Shown here: piece after piece, positions 27,146 through 53,550 of the stretch
Layout of the letters: every line of letters begins with the position of its first letter
Position numbering within the stretch: position 1 is the first letter of the stretch
Assembly (NCBI GenBank): GCA_026129865.1
Contig: JAHCHG010000002.1
Location: forward strand, 1 to 64,000
DNA length: 64,000 nucleotides
DNA from: Pyrinomonadaceae bacterium
GTDB taxonomy: Bacteria > Acidobacteriota > Blastocatellia > Pyrinomonadales > Pyrinomonadaceae
Direction of reading: 5' to 3'
Translations under genes and position numbers: made by a program
The notes under the pieces: model-generated
What the model saw: the letters and a program-made list of their open reading frames with translations, nothing else
What the model was told of the DNA's origin: nothing
Database searches by the model: none

Positions 27146-29355
27146 TACCTCTGCACCTGATATTGCGACGAAGTCACAATCAAATAGATCGCCTGTTGAG
27201 CGCGCGCCTGCGGAGTCGCCGCCGAAACTGCCGCGATCGACGTTAGGATCGTATTGCGCATCGACTGGCTCATCGTACCGTGAAGCATACGCGTGTTCAG
27301 AACATCCAAAAGCTGATTGCCGGTCGGGTCGCTCTGGACGAGCGCAGTCATTTCCGCAAGGTTGATCGAAGTTCCAGCCGGCGCGTCCGCACTCGTATTT
27401 AAGCGCGAGAACGTCATTGTATTGGCGACATTCGCCCGCGCGATGGCGGTTCCGGTCGTCATCAATCCAAATTCCGGTCCGTTAAGTCCCGTTCCGGGAA
27501 TTACATAATCGGGAGTGTAATAGTTGAACACCGTCGGAGAATAAAACGGATTTTGACCCATCGCGTTTGGAAGCGTCGATACTACGCCGTCGCTCTGCAT
27601 CGTTAGATTCGCCGATCCGACGTTAAAATGTCGAAGGAAATTCGTCGTAAAAAGAACGGGCTCACGAAGTTTCCCGTAGTGCGGGTCCGTCTTTACATCT
27701 CCGCGCGCTTCGGGATCAAGCAGGATAGCTTTAACAACGGCTTTAAGATCGCCGCGCACACCAAGCCCATTATTGTTGAAAACAGCCGCGATGCGTCCGA
27801 CATAAGCCGGCGTAGGATCGCTTGTTACGAGATGCTGTATTAAGTTTCGACTGACGAACGGACCAACATTCGGATGATAGAAAATGTTGTCCAGTGCGAG
27901 ATCGATCTCAGTGTTTCCGTTCAAATTCGCCGCAATAGTTGGATTAACGGCGTTCGGATAACTCAAAAGCGTTTTAGCTGTTACATCGTGATTTGCCTGA
28001 TTTAGCAGCAGCGGGTCTTTATAATTAACCGTTCCCGCAACCGCACTTGGGCAGAGCGGATTCGTTCCGGTATTGCAGAAAGACCAACCGGTAAAGACTT
28101 TTGTGAAATTATTTACGGTCGTTTGATTATAAGTCGGGATCGGATTGTTGTTTTGATCAAGTTGGAGCGTTCCATCCTGATTCATCATAAATAATCCGAC
28201 GGAAAACAGCTGGAGAATTTCGCGGGCAAAGTTTTCGTTCGGATTCGTCCGCGTACTCCGCGCCATATCGAGATAATTTCCCATTGCCGGATTTAACGTG
28301 ACATCCTTCATGAGATCTCTGTAATTGCCAAAAGCATGCCGCGAAAGTATTTGATGGTACGCAACTACGTGGCTTGCTTGCTGCGTGTCGACTCCGGAAA
28401 CAACCCAGAGCTGACCGAGCGCCCAGGCGACGCGGTGGCGCAGCTGCGCGTCTCCGTAAAATGCTTCTTTGAAAAACCAGCTTTGGACTAAATATTGCGA
28501 GTAATAATCTCTTAAGCAGATACGCCGTTCGGTACTTCCCGAAGCAAACATCCCGCAGCCGAGAGTCGCATTATTTGTATCGTTCGATCTTAGCGGAAGA
28601 TCGGGGTACGGATTTTCTACGCTTGGATAAGGCATATCGAATTGCTCGGCAAGCCAGACGCGCAAACCGATTCGGCGGAGCCTGTGATCTAAAGCCGCTG
28701 TCGGACCGAATGTAGCCTGCTCTAAAAAGCGTATCCGGTCGCCGGAGTACGTATATCCGACGTAGTTTGAAGTTGTCGACGAATCGTCACCCGGCTTATC
28801 GGCAAACATTTTCATCGGTGTCGGTTGTGCACCGGCAATCTCCTTAAGATTTCCGCCGCTGCGCCCGAGGGCGATCTTCACCGGGTTACTGACAAGTCCG
28901 CGCCACGTCAAACGTAAATATGCATCACCGATCTCGAGCGGACCTTGCCAAAAGCCGAGGTTGTCGCGAACTTCAAAAGTCAGAGCATAGATCCATTCCT
29001 GCCCTTTTAATTGTTCTAATTTCACGACCGGAAATCTGTATAAGCGCTGCTGCTGATCTTCAACAAGAATGCGAAAAGCATTAACACCTTCGTTTTCCAG
29101 CAGCGACAGGTTCGTTACAAAGATAGTTACGTACGAGCCTTCGCGAAACACTGTTTGCGTTAGTCCGGCGCGTTTTCCACTTTTTACGGAACTCGCCGCC
29201 GTTAATACGCGAAGCGAATCCGGCTCGCTGATCACGATAGGCGTCGGCGAATTAGGATTCGGATCATCCTGTGCGAAAGCGGGGATGAAAGTCAGCAGAC
29301 TTAGGATCACCGCTCCCAAAATATGGCTAAATAAGCGTGTTTTACGGCTTATCAT
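27145..29355 (-). CDS. DUF1800 secreted protein
   Basis: A 736-residue protein with a signal peptide ending PAFAQ. After about 190 residues of N-terminal beta-rich sequence comes the DUF1800 domain: RIRFLEQATFGPTAALDHRLRRIGLRVWLAEQFDMP, LRHRVAWALGQLWVVSG, YLDMARSTRTNPNENFAREILQLFSVGLFMMNQDG, NFTKVFTGWSF, LDNIFYHPNVGPFVSRNLIQHLVTSDPTPAYVGRIA, RGDLKAVVKAILLDPEAR and KLREPVLFTTNFLRHF. It is first in a two-gene operon with DUF1501. A role in surface polymer handling has been suggested for such pairs in other bacteria, but I cannot support a specific activity here. Confidence 0.92.
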   Translation of the reverse strand: MISRKTRLFSHILGAVILSLLTFIPAFAQDDPNPNSPTPIVISEPDSLRVLTAASSVKSGKRAGLTQTVFREGSYVTIFVTNLSLLENEGVNAFRILVEDQQQRLYRFPVVKLEQLKGQEWIYALTFEVRDNLGFWQGPLEIGDAYLRLTWRGLVSNPVKIALGRSGGNLKEIAGAQPTPMKMFADKPGDDSSTTSNYVGYTYSGDRIRFLEQATFGPTAALDHRLRRIGLRVWLAEQFDMPYPSVENPYPDLPLRSNDTNNATLGCGMFASGSTERRICLRDYYSQYLVQSWFFKEAFYGDAQLRHRVAWALGQLWVVSGVDTQQASHVVAYHQILSRHAFGNYRDLMKDVTLNPAMGNYLDMARSTRTNPNENFAREILQLFSVGLFMMNQDGTLQLDQNNNPIPTYNQTTVNNFTKVFTGWSFCNTGTNPLCPSAVAGTVNYKDPLLLNQANHDVTAKTLLSYPNAVNPTIAANLNGNTEIDLALDNIFYHPNVGPFVSRNLIQHLVTSDPTPAYVGRIAAVFNNNGLGVRGDLKAVVKAILLDPEARGDVKTDPHYGKLREPVLFTTNFLRHFNVGSANLTMQSDGVVSTLPNAMGQNPFYSPTVFNYYTPDYVIPGTGLNGPEFGLMTTGTAIARANVANTMTFSRLNTSADAPAGTSINLAEMTALVQSDPTGNQLLDVLNTRMLHGTMSQSMRNTILTSIAAVSAATPQARAQQAIYLIVTSSQYQVQR

Positions 29356-48048: not shown

Positions 48049-49581
48049 TCAGATCTTTCGATCTGCAACGAGCAGTCTGACCGTTTCCATATGCGGTTTC
48101 ATATAATCGTCGCGTTCGATAAATGGTACGCCTGCCCTAATTTTCTCATAAGCAAAACGTGTTCCTTTTCCAAGCGATTTATCGGCGCCGATAACTTTTT
48201 TGCGAAAATCGATTCCCTGCGCAGCACAAAAAAGTTCAAGCGACAGTATCTGTTCCAAATTTTCATTGATCTGACGAAGTTTGAGTGCAGAAGTTACTCC
48301 CATCGAAACATGGTCTTCGACATTTGCGGATGAAGGAATTGTATCGACACTTGCCGGATGAGCGAGAACTTTATTCTCAGTCGCAAGTGCTGCGGCGGTA
48401 TATTGAACGATCATAAAGCCGGAGTTAAGTCCTCCGTTTTCAGTAAGAAACGCCGGTAAGACATGCGCGTTTGAATTTTCATCCGTCAGCCGCATGATTC
48501 GTCTTTCGGAAATATTTGCGAGTTCGGCAAGTGCGATCGCAAGATAATCCATCGAAAGCGCAAGCGGTTCGCCGTGAAAATTCCCGCCCGAAATAACGTC
48601 GATGTTCTCGCAGTCGTCGTCGCAAAATATCAAAGGATTATCTGTAACCGCATTCAATTCTATGTTTACGACCCATTCGGCGTACGCGATGGCATCGCGG
48701 CAGGCACCGTGAACCTGGGGAATGCAGCGCAGAGTGTACGCATCCTGTACATTTGCCGGATCGAAATCTCGGACAAATTCGCTTTCTTCCAGAAGTTTTC
48801 GCAAATTCGAAGCGCATTCACGCTGTTTCGGATGCGGGCGCAGCGCGTGAATTCTATCGTCAAATGCCAGAGTCGTTCCGTTCAAAGCCTCGAGACTTAA
48901 ACATCCGGAAATATCTGCGATGTCTGCAAGGTAATTTGCTTTATGAGTTTCCAGCAAACCGACGGCGGTCATAACGGTCGTGCCGTTCGTCAGCGCCAAT
49001 CCCTCTTTTGCAGCGAGTTTTACCGGCTGCAGATCGAGCTTTTTCAAAACCTCGGCTGCAGCGGCGGTTTTTCCGTCAAAAACGACCTCGCCCATCCCGA
49101 TCAAAGGCAGCGCCATATGCGCAAGCGGAGCCAGATCGCCGCTGGCACCGAGACTTCCCTTTTCAGGAATTACCGGAAGAATTCCGCGATTCAAAAATTC
49201 GATCAAAAGTTCCAGAGTTTCAAGACGAATTCCTGAAAATCCGCGCGACAGGGTATTTGCCCGGATCAGCATTATCGCCCGCGTCGTTGCGGCGTCGAAC
49301 GGATTCCCGACCCCGACAGCGTGGCTCATCAAAATATTTTGCTGCAGATGTCCGGCTTCTTCGGGCGAGATTATCTTGTCTTTGAAGGCGCCGAATCCGG
49401 TCGTGATGCCGTATGCGATCTCGCCCCGGTCGAGCAGAAGCTGCACCGCGCGAGCCGACCGTTCGACCTTTTCTTTTGCCGCTTCGGACAAAGAAACTCG
49501 CGGCTCATTCGGATTTCCGAAAGCTACCGCGACAACTTGTTCAAAGGTAAGATTTTCGCCGTCTAATAATATTTCATTCAT
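48049..49581 (-). CDS. hutH: Histidine ammonia-lyase
   Basis: It converts L-histidine to urocanate, the first step of histidine use. The MIO cofactor triad Ala146-Ser147-Gly148 lies in GSLGASGDLAPLAHMAL. Other signatures are YGITTGFGAFKDK, QQNILMSHAVGVG, TDNPLIF and HGEPLAL with MDYLAIALAE. ATG 49581 is chosen because it overlaps the stop of the upstream NTF2-like gene (ATGA), giving 510 residues, the standard size. It is the last gene of hutI-(NTF2-like)-hutH; no urocanase gene lies nearby. Confidence 0.95.
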   Translation of the reverse strand: MNEILLDGENLTFEQVVAVAFGNPNEPRVSLSEAAKEKVERSARAVQLLLDRGEIAYGITTGFGAFKDKIISPEEAGHLQQNILMSHAVGVGNPFDAATTRAIMLIRANTLSRGFSGIRLETLELLIEFLNRGILPVIPEKGSLGASGDLAPLAHMALPLIGMGEVVFDGKTAAAAEVLKKLDLQPVKLAAKEGLALTNGTTVMTAVGLLETHKANYLADIADISGCLSLEALNGTTLAFDDRIHALRPHPKQRECASNLRKLLEESEFVRDFDPANVQDAYTLRCIPQVHGACRDAIAYAEWVVNIELNAVTDNPLIFCDDDCENIDVISGGNFHGEPLALSMDYLAIALAELANISERRIMRLTDENSNAHVLPAFLTENGGLNSGFMIVQYTAAALATENKVLAHPASVDTIPSSANVEDHVSMGVTSALKLRQINENLEQILSLELFCAAQGIDFRKKVIGADKSLGKGTRFAYEKIRAGVPFIERDDYMKPHMETVRLLVADRKI

Positions 49582-49949
49582 CGATTCTTCCAAAATTCCT
49601 TCCAGCTAAGATCGCTTTTATGCTGATATTCACGCCAACTGACGATCTTGTTGTTCTCGATCTTAATCCAAACCGTTCCGTGGTAAGAGCTATTCCCGAT
49701 ATATGTATATTCCGCAGCACCGGTCTGTGTTTTTTCGTCAAAAAGCGCATTGTAAAAAACACAAAACTGATCGAGTCCGTCGTCGTCCCGAAAAAATTCG
49801 AGCAGATCCGAGCGTTTGTAAAATGTGTAATTTAGACTGTCCGAGTAAAAAAGATCTTCTTCAAAGAAGCCGACCGCGCGATCGTAATCGCGCGTTTGCC
49901 ATGCATTCGCAAGTTCGCCGAGCATAGCGCGGAAATTAGACCTTTTCAT
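49578..49949 (-). CDS. NTF2/SnoaL-like protein inside the hut operon
   Basis: A 123-residue alpha+beta-barrel protein: MLGELANAWQTRDYDRAVGFFEEDLFYSDSLNYTFYKRSDLLEFFRDDDG and TVWIKIENNKIVSWREYQHKSDLSWKEFWKN are typical of SnoaL-like polyketide-cyclase folds. The ATG at 49949 (MKRSNF) overlaps the hutI stop by 14 bases, and the stop overlaps the hutH start by 4, so all three genes are translationally coupled. Its catalytic or binding role in histidine breakdown is unknown. Confidence 0.8.
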   Translation of the reverse strand: MKRSNFRAMLGELANAWQTRDYDRAVGFFEEDLFYSDSLNYTFYKRSDLLEFFRDDDGLDQFCVFYNALFDEKTQTGAAEYTYIGNSSYHGTVWIKIENNKIVSWREYQHKSDLSWKEFWKNR

Positions 49950-51207
49950 AAACCGCCGTTCCGCTTTTCCAAACTTGTTCGATAAAATTGCCGCCGAATT
50001 CATAGATTATCTCGCGGTAATCTTTCGTATCGAACATCAAAATATCCGCCGCCTTTCCTGCCTCAAGCGAACCGATCTCAGAGCCGCGCCCGACAGCAAA
50101 CGCAGCATTTATCGTTGCAGCGTTAAATGCCTCAGCCGGCAAAAGTTTCTGATAACGGCAGGCGATCGCCATCGTGTTTGGAAGACTCGGACACGGCGCG
50201 CTCCCGGGATTGTAATCGGTCGAAAGTGCGACCGCACAATTTTCATCAATAAATTTTCGCGCGTTCGCAAAATCGCATGATCCGAAATTGAAATTGACAG
50301 TCGGCGTAACCACACCGATCGTATCGGATGAAGCGAGCATTTTTATTTCCTCGTCTGAGATCGCGTCCAGATGATCGATCGAATCGGCATCCAACGCTAT
50401 CGCCATCCGCGCGCCGCCAAGGTTTGTAAATTCGTCGACGTGAGCTTTGATCCCGAAACCGAGCGACCGCGCCGCTTCAAGAACCTGTTTCGATTGAATA
50501 AGATCGAAGGCGTTCTTTTCGCAGAAAACGTCCGCATAAAACTTGCCGGTAAAACCTCGATCGGCAAGCAGTTTTGCCGCTGAGGGCAGCATTTCACGGC
50601 AGATAAGTGCGACGTAGGCGTCGGGGTTTTCTTTAAATTCCGGCGGAACGGCGTGCGCCGGAAGAAAGGTCGGAACAAGTTCGATCGGATGGCTTTCGTT
50701 TAGCTCAATGATCGCCTCGAGCATTTTCAGCTCACTTTCGGTGTCGAGCCCGTAACCGGTTTTAATTTCACAAGTTGTAACGCCAAAAGCGAGCAGTTTA
50801 TCGAGCCGTTTTGCTGATGTTTCAATAAGATCTTCGATCGATGCCGCGCGCGTCCGGCGAACCGTCGATAAAATTCCGCCGCCGTTCTTCAGAATCTCAA
50901 GATAATCCGCGCCTTTAATCTTCAGCTCAAATTCTTCAAGCCGGTCGCCAGCAAAAACGAGATGAGTGTGGCATTCGACAAACCCGGGCGTAACGACCAT
51001 TCCACCCGCATCGAACGTTTCTTTGGCGGAAAAATGGTCGAGGATATGTTTGGTCTCGCCGACGGCAGCGATCTTTCCATCCAAAATTGCCGCCGCTCCA
51101 TTTTCAATGATGGAAAGATCGTTCATCTCGGCGCCTTTCTTTGGCTTTCGGTTGGAAGCGCAGGTCAAAAGCTGCGCAGCATTGTAAATTATCAGGTCTG
51201 TTTTCAT
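49936..51207 (-). CDS. hutI: Imidazolonepropionase
   Basis: An amidohydrolase that opens imidazolone-5-propionate to N-formimino-glutamate, the third step of histidine use. Metal ligands: His80 and His82 in VECHTHLVFAG; then HVDEF and the conserved ALSTDYNPGSAPCPSLPNTMAIACRY. GKIAAVG and GKAADILMFD are the N- and C-terminal beta-sandwich pieces. ATG 51207 (MKTDLIIYNA) replaces the longer opening at 51321, whose first 38 residues are unrelated to the family. The length of 423 is slightly above the usual 400-410 because of a short insert (SNRKPKKGAEMND). Confidence 0.95.
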   Translation of the reverse strand: MKTDLIIYNAAQLLTCASNRKPKKGAEMNDLSIIENGAAAILDGKIAAVGETKHILDHFSAKETFDAGGMVVTPGFVECHTHLVFAGDRLEEFELKIKGADYLEILKNGGGILSTVRRTRAASIEDLIETSAKRLDKLLAFGVTTCEIKTGYGLDTESELKMLEAIIELNESHPIELVPTFLPAHAVPPEFKENPDAYVALICREMLPSAAKLLADRGFTGKFYADVFCEKNAFDLIQSKQVLEAARSLGFGIKAHVDEFTNLGGARMAIALDADSIDHLDAISDEEIKMLASSDTIGVVTPTVNFNFGSCDFANARKFIDENCAVALSTDYNPGSAPCPSLPNTMAIACRYQKLLPAEAFNAATINAAFAVGRGSEIGSLEAGKAADILMFDTKDYREIIYEFGGNFIEQVWKSGTAVYEKV

Positions 51208-51295
51208 TGTCCGCTTAGATTCTAGACGGAATGATACTGGCGAACAAGTTCGATAGGATCCGTTAGTGAAAGCGAGTCTTTTCAGGTCAAAACAC

Positions 51296-51324
51296 AAAAA
51301 AGCCTGAAGATCTGTCTTCAAGCT
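51296..51324 (-). terminator. Terminator of the VWA gene
   Basis: On the minus strand AGCTTGAAGA and TCTTCAGGCT (one mismatch, positions 51301-51324) form a hairpin followed by a T-run (complement of 51296-51300), 32 bp past the stop at 51356. Confidence 0.75.
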
Positions 51325-51355: not shown

Positions 51356-52543
51356 TCACTGCGGAGCGCCCGCCCCGACAATATAGCTGTCACGCGCGCG
51401 AATTACCAGATTGGGACGATTGACTCGAACTTTAATTTTCTTTCGCTCGCCGATCTCACCGATCTCTGAAGGATAATATCCGATGTTATATTGCCGGCGG
51501 AGTTCTTCAGCAATGCCTTCGAATGCGGCATTCAAACCGCCGGGAGTCGATTCGGGACGAAAAACGCGCCCGCCGGTCAGATCGGCGAGATCATTTAAAT
51601 ATTGCCGCCCGCGCGCATAATCTTCGCTTCGCATTCCGACGGGGACCCGACCGCCTGGAAAACCGATCGTCGCCGTTCCGGTCATAACACCGCCTGTCCC
51701 GATACCGCGCGACGCGAGAAAAGTGTTGTAATAGATAGGAAAGATCATCGCGTCCGCTTCGTCTGCGTCTTCGAGCGTGGAATTATAGCTTGCCCGGTTA
51801 GATGTTGTGTCGACTCCGTCCGTAAACAGCACGATCGCCTTTTTCCCTTCGATCCGGTCGAGCCGTTTGCCGAGCGAAACGGCAACAGCATCATAAAGAG
51901 ACGTGCCGTCCCCGAATTTCGATCTATTAATAGCGCGGTAAATTCGTTCGCGGTCGGTTGTCGGATCGGTCAAAACATCGACGCCGTAATCAAAACTAAT
52001 TACCATGACGCTGTCCTGCGGTTTTAATTTTGAAACGAATCCGCGCGCTGCGGCTTGGATCTCTTCGATCTTATAGTTGGTCGACGGCGACGTATCGATC
52101 AGCATTATGATCGTAAATGGCTGTTCGGTTGTCGCGAAATAGGCTATTTCCTGCTCTTTTCCGTCTTCGAGAATGGTAAAATTTTCCGGTCCAAGCCCGG
52201 GAATATATAGTCCGTTACGATCATAAACCGAGACCGGAATGGTAACGAGGGTCGAGTCGATCTTTATGATCTCGTCATCCGATTCGGGTTCCGTTTGATC
52301 GGCAGATTGGGGAACGTTTTTGACCGCTGTTTGTGTTTTCGATTCTTTTTTCTTTTTATTTTTACGCGATTTTGCCGTGATCGGAATAACTCTGCCGCCG
52401 GACGATTCCGAATAGCCAGCTTCGGTTTCAACCGGCGTTGGAACAGGCGTCGGCACCGATTTTATCCGCCTGCCCGATTGGGCAAACGCAGCTGCTGCAG
52501 TGGAGAAAAGAATTAGTAAAAGAAGAACCGAGCGATAATACAT
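51356..52543 (-). CDS. VWFA-related secreted protein
   Basis: A 395-residue protein of the VWFA-related acidobacterial family (TIGR03436-like). The signal peptide ends AAAAFAQ. A low-complexity linker (residues 25-95: Pro/Thr, then Lys-rich, then acidic) precedes LVTIPVSVYDRNGLYIPGLGPENFTILEDGKEQEIAYF and the von Willebrand A fold with the MIDAS motif DTSPS (Asp150, Ser152, Ser154), SVMVISFDYGVDVLTDPTTD and KAIVLFTDGVDTTSN. It likely mediates metal-dependent protein contacts on the cell surface. It has its own terminator. Confidence 0.9.
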   Translation of the reverse strand: MYYRSVLLLLILFSTAAAAFAQSGRRIKSVPTPVPTPVETEAGYSESSGGRVIPITAKSRKNKKKKESKTQTAVKNVPQSADQTEPESDDEIIKIDSTLVTIPVSVYDRNGLYIPGLGPENFTILEDGKEQEIAYFATTEQPFTIIMLIDTSPSTNYKIEEIQAAARGFVSKLKPQDSVMVISFDYGVDVLTDPTTDRERIYRAINRSKFGDGTSLYDAVAVSLGKRLDRIEGKKAIVLFTDGVDTTSNRASYNSTLEDADEADAMIFPIYYNTFLASRGIGTGGVMTGTATIGFPGGRVPVGMRSEDYARGRQYLNDLADLTGGRVFRPESTPGGLNAAFEGIAEELRRQYNIGYYPSEIGEIGERKKIKVRVNRPNLVIRARDSYIVGAGAPQ

Positions 52544-52612: not shown

Positions 52613-53191
52613 CTAAACTAATCCATCATCGCGCCCTATCCCGAGTGCGTCGGCAACGCGGTTTATATAATTGAACCACGACGCGATCAGCGTTATCTGA
52701 AGGATCGCCTGATCGTCAAAGCCCGCGGTTCTGAGCTTTTCGTGGTTTCCGGGATGGATCTTTCCTGCATCTTTAGTTAGCTGAATTACATAATCGCACA
52801 TAACGCGTTCCGACTCGCTGATCGGTGCGTTTTCGTAATCGGTTTTGAGCTTTTCGCTCAGATCGCTGTCTAAAGTTACGCGACGCAGAAACTCTGCGTG
52901 AGATTTCAGTCAGTAATGGCAATCATTTGTTACCGAGACCATCGTCGCGATCATCTCGTGCTGGCGCCGGTCAAGCGGCAGGTCCGGCGACATCAAAGCG
53001 CCGAAGGTCGAAAAAGCATGAAAAAGTGCGTCGGGAATCAGCGTATGCGAATCGACGATCGTTTCATCGATCGCGCTTGCGCCGTCGACCGGTCGTTCAT
53101 ATTCCGGCGGATAGTTTTTTCGCACGTCCACCATTGCCTTTTGCAGCTTTTCGCCGCCGTCTTCAAATTTTACTGTTTTTATCCAAGCCAT
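52613..53191 (-). CDS. AhpD/CMD-fold peroxidase-related protein with in-frame UGA at the CxxC site: candidate selenoprotein
   Basis: A single frame runs from ATG 53191 to TAG 52613 (192 residues counting the UGA residue) and is interrupted only by a TGA at 52910-52912. Before it: [57 protein letters not shown]. After it: [31 protein letters not shown] and [27 protein letters not shown]. These are the consecutive parts of a peroxidase-related AhpD-like (carboxymuconolactone decarboxylase fold) protein, whose active site is C-x-Y-C followed by xxH. The TGA takes the place of the second cysteine, giving CHYU-LKSH. The conserved sequence on both sides in one frame plus the hairpin at 52870-52912 favour selenocysteine over a nonsense mutation. 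The alternative is a pseudogene arising by one base change from TGC or TGT. Confidence 0.78.
52870..52912 (-). promoter_or_regulatory. Candidate bacterial SECIS element
   Basis: Directly after the in-frame UGA (52912-52910) the mRNA can fold as a lower stem CUGAAAU (52909-52903) with ACUUUAG (52876-52870; one G-U, one mismatch). An internal loop follows, then a perfect 7-bp upper stem ACGCAGA (52899-52893) with UCUGCGU (52889-52883) closed by the loop GUU. The loop G is 17 bases past the UGA. A G at the start of a small apical loop about 16-37 bases from UGA is the rule for bacterial SECIS elements bound by SelB. It has not been tested. Confidence 0.7.
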
Positions 53192-53196
53192 AATTC

Positions 53197-53550
53197 TTAA
53201 ATTGTCTTCCTTGTCGATTTCAGCGACGAGATCAGCATTTTCTGGAGTTCCTCGCAATCGTTCAAAAGCGACGACGCTTCTTTTTCGTTCAAAAATTCCG
53301 AGTCGCGCAAAACACGCAGCCAGAAATTTGTCTTAAAAGCTTCTTTGTTTGCGACCGACAATCGTTTTAAGAAATCCGTTCGATCTTCGCCCTGGCGCGC
53401 CTCTTCGATCAGAACGCCGACCGCCGTCCCCGAATCGAGAATCTTTTTCGAAATGACGAATTCCTTTTTTTGATTGTTTAAATACTGACTAAGCTTTACG
53501 ATTCTGAGCGCAAAATTATAAGACTTTGTGAGCAAAATGCTGTCCGCCAT
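53197..53550 (-). CDS. Four-helix bundle protein (S23/23S-intervening-sequence family)
   Basis: A 117-residue helical protein of the TIGR02436/PF05635 type. LTKSYNFALRIVKLSQYL, FVISKKILDSGTAVGVLIEEARQGEDRTDFLKRLSVANKEAFKTNFWLRVL and LLNDCEELQKMLISSLKST are the four helices with the family's S-(x)-G-S(A)-V-G-x-L-x-EA pattern. In spirochetes it is encoded in 23S rRNA insertions; here it is free-standing and only 5 bp upstream of the candidate selenoprotein, so it is probably co-transcribed with it. Function unknown. Confidence 0.88.
   Translation of the reverse strand: MADSILLTKSYNFALRIVKLSQYLNNQKKEFVISKKILDSGTAVGVLIEEARQGEDRTDFLKRLSVANKEAFKTNFWLRVLRDSEFLNEKEASSLLNDCEELQKMLISSLKSTRKTI

Follow-up and report, generated by a model that had tools for sequence, protein, structure and literature searches.

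A predicted AhpD-like selenoprotein with a conserved in-frame UGA and a SECIS hairpin under selection in a Pyrinomonadaceae bacterium

The gene found at positions 52613–53191 of the window (by which we mean the whole stretch of 64,000 nucleotides that was analysed, from contig JAHCHG010000002.1 of a Pyrinomonadaceae bacterium) is, with a probability of about 0.96, a functional AhpD-like selenoprotein gene of the TIGR01926 family, in which the UGA at codon 94 is predicted to be read as selenocysteine (Sec). Computation established the open frame, the conservation of the UGA, the selection on the hairpin that follows it, the Sec machinery of the host, the family to which the fold belongs and the residues of the catalytic site. 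These results support the view of the first-pass annotation of this DNA that the gene encodes a functional selenoprotein, and Sec insertion is the step that we infer from them.

When TGA is read as Sec, the minus strand gives a frame of 192 codons running from 53191 to 52613, and codon 94 is the only in-frame TGA (Table 1). The residues around it are VTNDCHYU-LKSHAEF, which contain the motif C91-H-Y-U94 followed by L-K-S-H98. The first-pass annotation had given the limits of the gene correctly and had not named the strand, which is the minus strand; its description of one frame broken solely by a TGA at the place of the second active-site Cys holds for the 192-aa frame. It had also anticipated that ordinary gene calling would split the gene into two small ORFs, and calling with translation table 11 did indeed yield two, of 115 aa and 62 aa.

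Table 1. Features of the predicted selenoprotein gene and its surroundings, in window coordinates
Feature	Coordinates	Strand	Basis
AhpD-like peroxidase-related selenoprotein gene (predicted; 192 aa + TAG stop, Sec = residue 94)	52613..53191	-	Open frame with one TGA; TIGR01926; PF02627 CMD; PDB relatives 2pfx, 3c1l, 6k40
UGA codon predicted to be read as selenocysteine (U94), second active-site residue of C91-x-x-U94	52910..52912	-	TGA in 110/110 relatives; Cys in two relatives, in genomes without SelB over the cut-off
Putative bacterial SECIS apical hairpin, 7-bp stem ACGCAGA/UCUGCGU, GUU loop	52883..52899	-	Loop G at 52892; synonymous entropy, pairing in 88 sequences, compensatory pair in the paralogous subfamily
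Codon for Glu79	52955..52957	-	Invariant column in 28 sequences; spacing of Glu118 in the M. tuberculosis AhpD proton relay (PMC3141380)
Codon for Cys91, first residue of CxxU, presumed resolving Cys	52919..52921	-	Invariant column; Thr in the Cys-form relative L149
Codon for His98	52898..52900	-	Invariant column; CAC in 88/88 sequences; spacing of His137 in M. tuberculosis AhpD
23S rRNA-intervening-sequence protein family gene, upstream	53197..53550	-	PF05635; coordinates; neighbour clusters

Relatives of the gene were taken from public genomes as well as from members of the host family; 110 of them, the window gene included, were readable across the site, and 88 of these are distinct. TGA occupies the site in all 110, and in every one the frame runs on to the conserved end, with the downstream half conserved at 62–79% protein identity. 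The earlier annotation had foreseen homologues with either TGA or Cys at this position, and beside the 110 with TGA we found TGC rarely, in two relatives discussed below; it had also named a decayed or frameshifted downstream half in close relatives as an observation that would speak against its reading, and this half proved to be intact and conserved. The nearest relatives belong to the Pyrinomonadaceae and other Acidobacteriota, and relatives as a whole are mostly from Acidobacteriota. Further ones are labelled Gemmatimonadota, Planctomycetota, Latescibacterota and Pseudomonadota. Metagenome bins are frequent among the relatives, so that single labels may be wrong. Plasmid records held only relatives of less than 60% identity (about 30–33% among the five listed), which gives no sign of this subgroup on plasmids.

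The hairpin ACGCAGA-GUU-UCUGCGU coincides with codons 98–103 (CAC GCA GAG TTT CTG CGT). The published model of the bacterial SECIS (bSECIS) element has a loop of 3–9 nt with a G in one of its first two positions, a stem of 4–16 bp, a spacing of 16–37 nt and a minimum free energy of at most −7.5 kcal/mol (PMC13188914); the hairpin agrees with this model, having a GUU loop, a stem of 7 bp, 17 nt from the UGA to the loop G and an energy of −8.2 kcal/mol. A hairpin with a GUU apical loop and a loop G 17 nt after the TGA had been proposed in the first-pass annotation and was recovered at 52899–52883, with the G at 52892. The two stacked stems proposed with it did not stand up: only the 7-bp apical stem was kept by RNAalifold over the 88 relatives, and no lower stem appears when the 53-nt segment from the UGA is folded to minimum energy, so that the lower stem was rejected.

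Taken by itself, the hairpin is weak evidence, since the 53-nt segment that begins at the UGA folds no better than its shuffles (z = −0.32) and comparable structures are not rare: with loop and spacing restricted in the same way, 59 of the 1993 TGAs of the window (3.0%) have a perfect hairpin with a stem of 7 bp or more behind them. The thermodynamic z-score was set aside as uninformative. Chance is ruled out, as judged from the alignments, by the presence of TGA in all 110 relatives together with synonymous sites that are frozen exactly over the hairpin. The synonymous codon entropy of codons 98–103 amounts to 5% of expectation, the median of all six-codon stretches in the gene being 90%. The stem pairs are kept in 99.7% of cells across the 88 sequences, a share that drops to 15–72% when the 3' arm is slid by 1–3 nt, and the rare stem variants mostly still pair (A-U to G-U in six, G-C to G-U in one). 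These comparisons indicate that an RNA element over codons 98–103 is under selection. The ban on synonymous change might in principle serve another RNA signal; the loss of the hairpin in two Cys forms argues for a SECIS element.

The first of these Cys forms (L129, 59% identity) has TGC at the Sec site and retains the amino acids HAEFLRR, while four of the six hairpin codons are changed (CAT GCG GAG TTT TTG CGG) and the hairpin is down to −2.2 kcal/mol. In the tree it sits on a long branch and pairs with a Sec form, L052 (100/97), within the clade of Sec forms. Its genome (86% complete) gave no selA match and neither SelB nor tRNA-Sec over the cut-offs, which could be due to assembly gaps. The second (L149:462-1025, 55% identity) has Cys (TGC) at the Sec site and Thr at the first Cys (TRYC), and its hairpin is gone (−0.7 kcal/mol); SelB over the cut-off was not found in its genome, which is 99% complete. 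In both relatives the apparent loss of Sec is accompanied by that of the hairpin, and the two genes with their decayed hairpins may be regarded as a natural experiment on the joint loss of Sec and its RNA signal. The presence of SelB was also tried as an association test over the whole family and is not decisive, because most of the family genomes have SelB (94 of 119 over the cut-off).

Other genomes of the same family contain a further AhpD-like subfamily whose genes also carry the UGA (L130–L141), with the motif C-x-Y-U-x-x-H-H and about 30–36% identity to the window selenoprotein. Its hairpin, typically ACGGRGA-GGN-UCUCCGU with a loop of GG type, lies in the same register as that of the window gene, and the fourth stem pair is G-C in 11 of the 12 members as against C-G in the window gene, a compensatory change.

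If the UGA is read as Sec, the host should encode SelA, SelB, SelD and tRNA-Sec, as the first-pass annotation had pointed out, and all four were found over curated cut-offs in the host genome (4.4 Mb in 21 contigs, 95.8% complete): SelA at 543 bits (cut-off 268), SelB at 407 bits (cut-off 242), SelD at 353 bits (cut-off 125) and one tRNA-Sec at 67.6 bits (cut-off 47), for which ARAGORN agrees. The SelD gene of the host (L150, G000:C19, around 28421–29347, minus strand) contains an in-frame TGA in the motif SCAGUVAKL, which makes SelD itself a predicted second selenoprotein.

If a peroxidase-related gene of the ordinary CxxC type had suffered a nonsense mutation, or if the sequence were in error, the frame would likewise be broken by one stop, and an ordinary gene caller would yield two short ORFs. 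This pseudogene explanation is refuted, since the TGA recurs in all 110 relatives and the half of the protein beyond it is conserved; the presence of the whole Sec machinery in the host further opposes it, and we consider it extremely improbable. The UGA might also be decoded as Cys or Trp without selenium, if the code were reassigned or a suppressor tRNA were at work. A small number of bacterial lineages do reassign UGA; nothing in the present data points to such a reassignment. Seven of the 26 window ORFs that reach 250 aa end in TGA, which shows that UGA elsewhere is an ordinary stop and the code an unaltered one, and decoding of the UGA through a changed code was rejected on these grounds. 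Since the full set of SelA, SelB, SelD and tRNA-Sec in the host and the strongly selected hairpin at SECIS spacing also count against decoding without selenium, we attach next to no weight to it.

Scored with Cys substituted for Sec, the protein reaches 105.3 bits on the TIGR01926 profile (cut-off 81.8), which represents the peroxidase-related branch of the AhpD fold, and it also matches PF02627 CMD in Pfam. Its PDB relatives found by phmmer (2pfx, 3c1l, 6k40, 2oyo and 2prr; E from 1e-15 to 4e-21) belong to the same family by sequence and have the same fold by structure, and the three of them that are in the alignment (2pfx, 3c1l and 6k40) carry Cys at the Sec position. An AlphaFold2 model built from 28 sequences has a moderate mean pLDDT of 74.4, with lower values near residues 91–110. 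The top Foldseek matches of this model are again 6k40, 3c1l and 2pfx (E about 1e-6), which are peroxidase-related proteins, and model and matches together place the protein in the AhpD-type all-helical fold.

E79, C91, Y93, position 94 and H98 are invariant in the 28 aligned sequences. The proton relay of M. tuberculosis AhpD consists of Glu118, Cys130, His132, Cys133 and His137, and the P. aeruginosa AhpD homologue PA0269 has Tyr in place of His132 (PMC3141380). Glu118, Cys130, Cys133 and His137 match Glu79, Cys91, Sec94 and His98 in spacing. The window protein differs from the M. tuberculosis enzyme in having Sec for the second Cys and Tyr93 for His132, and the likeness of the two folds is remote only (Foldseek E 0.04, 11% identity).

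For SelB binding, Sec insertion, the catalytic cycle, its substrate and its electron donor we infer a scheme in which SelB loaded with Sec-tRNA would bind the hairpin just 3' of UGA94 and selenocysteine would be delivered at this codon, giving the 192-aa protein. The selenol would most likely attack peroxide or another oxidised substrate, Cys91 would resolve the intermediate as a selenenylsulfide, and a cellular thiol donor would then reduce the latter. Peroxide reduction is probably the main activity of the predicted selenoprotein: every position of the AhpD proton relay is occupied (Glu79, Cys91, Tyr93, Sec94 and His98), and peroxidase-related proteins are the closest by structure. A selenoprotein whose main job lies elsewhere, as a thiol-disulfide adaptor or as an enzyme acting on another substrate, is somewhat less probable and still deserves serious consideration, since carboxymuconolactone decarboxylases and a debrominase share the AhpD fold, TIGR01926 is without an assigned substrate, and the debrominase Bmp8 is among the lower-ranking Foldseek matches (rank 30, E 9e-4, 13% identity). 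A substrate-linked role is also suggested by a permease gene that directly precedes the selenoprotein gene at about one related locus in three.

This gene codes for an APC-type amino-acid permease and shares the strand of the selenoprotein gene. It was seen at about 28 of the 80 public loci, in most cases no more than about 130 nt away from the selenoprotein gene. The loci that bear it include L019 (L019:1676-2968), L020, L021 and L023–L028, and Planctomycetota and Gemmatimonadota bins are among them. The permease matches PF13520, with no specific NCBIfam equivalog over the cut-off. No permease gene lies upstream of the window selenoprotein, and we found no paper that joins AhpD selenoproteins with amino acid permeases. 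The window gene is preceded by a gene of the 23S rRNA-intervening-sequence protein family, with 5 nt between the stop codon of that gene and the ATG of the selenoprotein gene, and the two may therefore be co-transcribed; among the loci examined, such a gene is not conserved as a neighbour. The selenoprotein gene is immediately followed by a gene for a VWA-domain protein of the Acidobacteria-type TIGR03436 family (51356–52543). The region 48049–51321 holds what we take to be histidine degradation genes, a histidine ammonia-lyase-like one (48049–49593) and an imidazolonepropionase-like amidohydrolase (49936–51321), these names being given from reading the sequence except for the Pfam match of the amidohydrolase.

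The permease pairing provides a modest new lead to the substrate of the TIGR01926 family. A bolder proposal, which we regard as unlikely, is that the subfamily of the window gene represents a largely Sec-locked TIGR01926 branch that has kept one frozen SECIS hairpin across Acidobacteriota, Gemmatimonadota and Planctomycetota and forms a two-gene unit with the upstream permease. If this were true, such a permease-linked branch would have a specific substrate-linked role, for example in the handling of an imported sulfur or selenium compound, and not one in general peroxide defence.

The Sargasso Sea yielded AhpD-like CXXU selenoproteins in a report of 2005 (PMC1088965), AhpD-like selenoprotein families were described in GOS in 2008 (PMC2398784), and a review of 2026 has 'AhpD-like protein, TIGR01926, CxxU' among the known prokaryotic selenoprotein families (PMC13188914). 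TIGR01926 CxxU thus being a known selenoprotein family already, the window gene adds a member to it and no new kind. Our literature search on selenoproteins of the bacterial group of the host found little, and the gene contributes a well-supported predicted selenoprotein in a soil-type acidobacterium (Pyrinomonadaceae-related) that standard gene calling splits.

The AhpD-related CFYUT (seleno)protein family NF041238 resembles the window protein in its AhpD-type core, in the CxYU motif (by the family name) and in having a Sec variant annotated by NCBI. The window protein is not a member of it, as its score of 61.4 bits is far below the profile cut-off of 175. With the known AhpD-like TIGR01926 CxxU selenoproteins, of which MCB9421940.1 is the reviewed member, it shares the profile, over the curated cut-off, as well as the CxxU motif, the predicted Sec in the second position and the SECIS hairpin just downstream of the UGA, a likeness that was established by profile, motif and hairpin. 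What sets the window gene and its relatives apart from these known selenoproteins is that they form a mostly acidobacterial subgroup with a near-invariant hairpin sequence.
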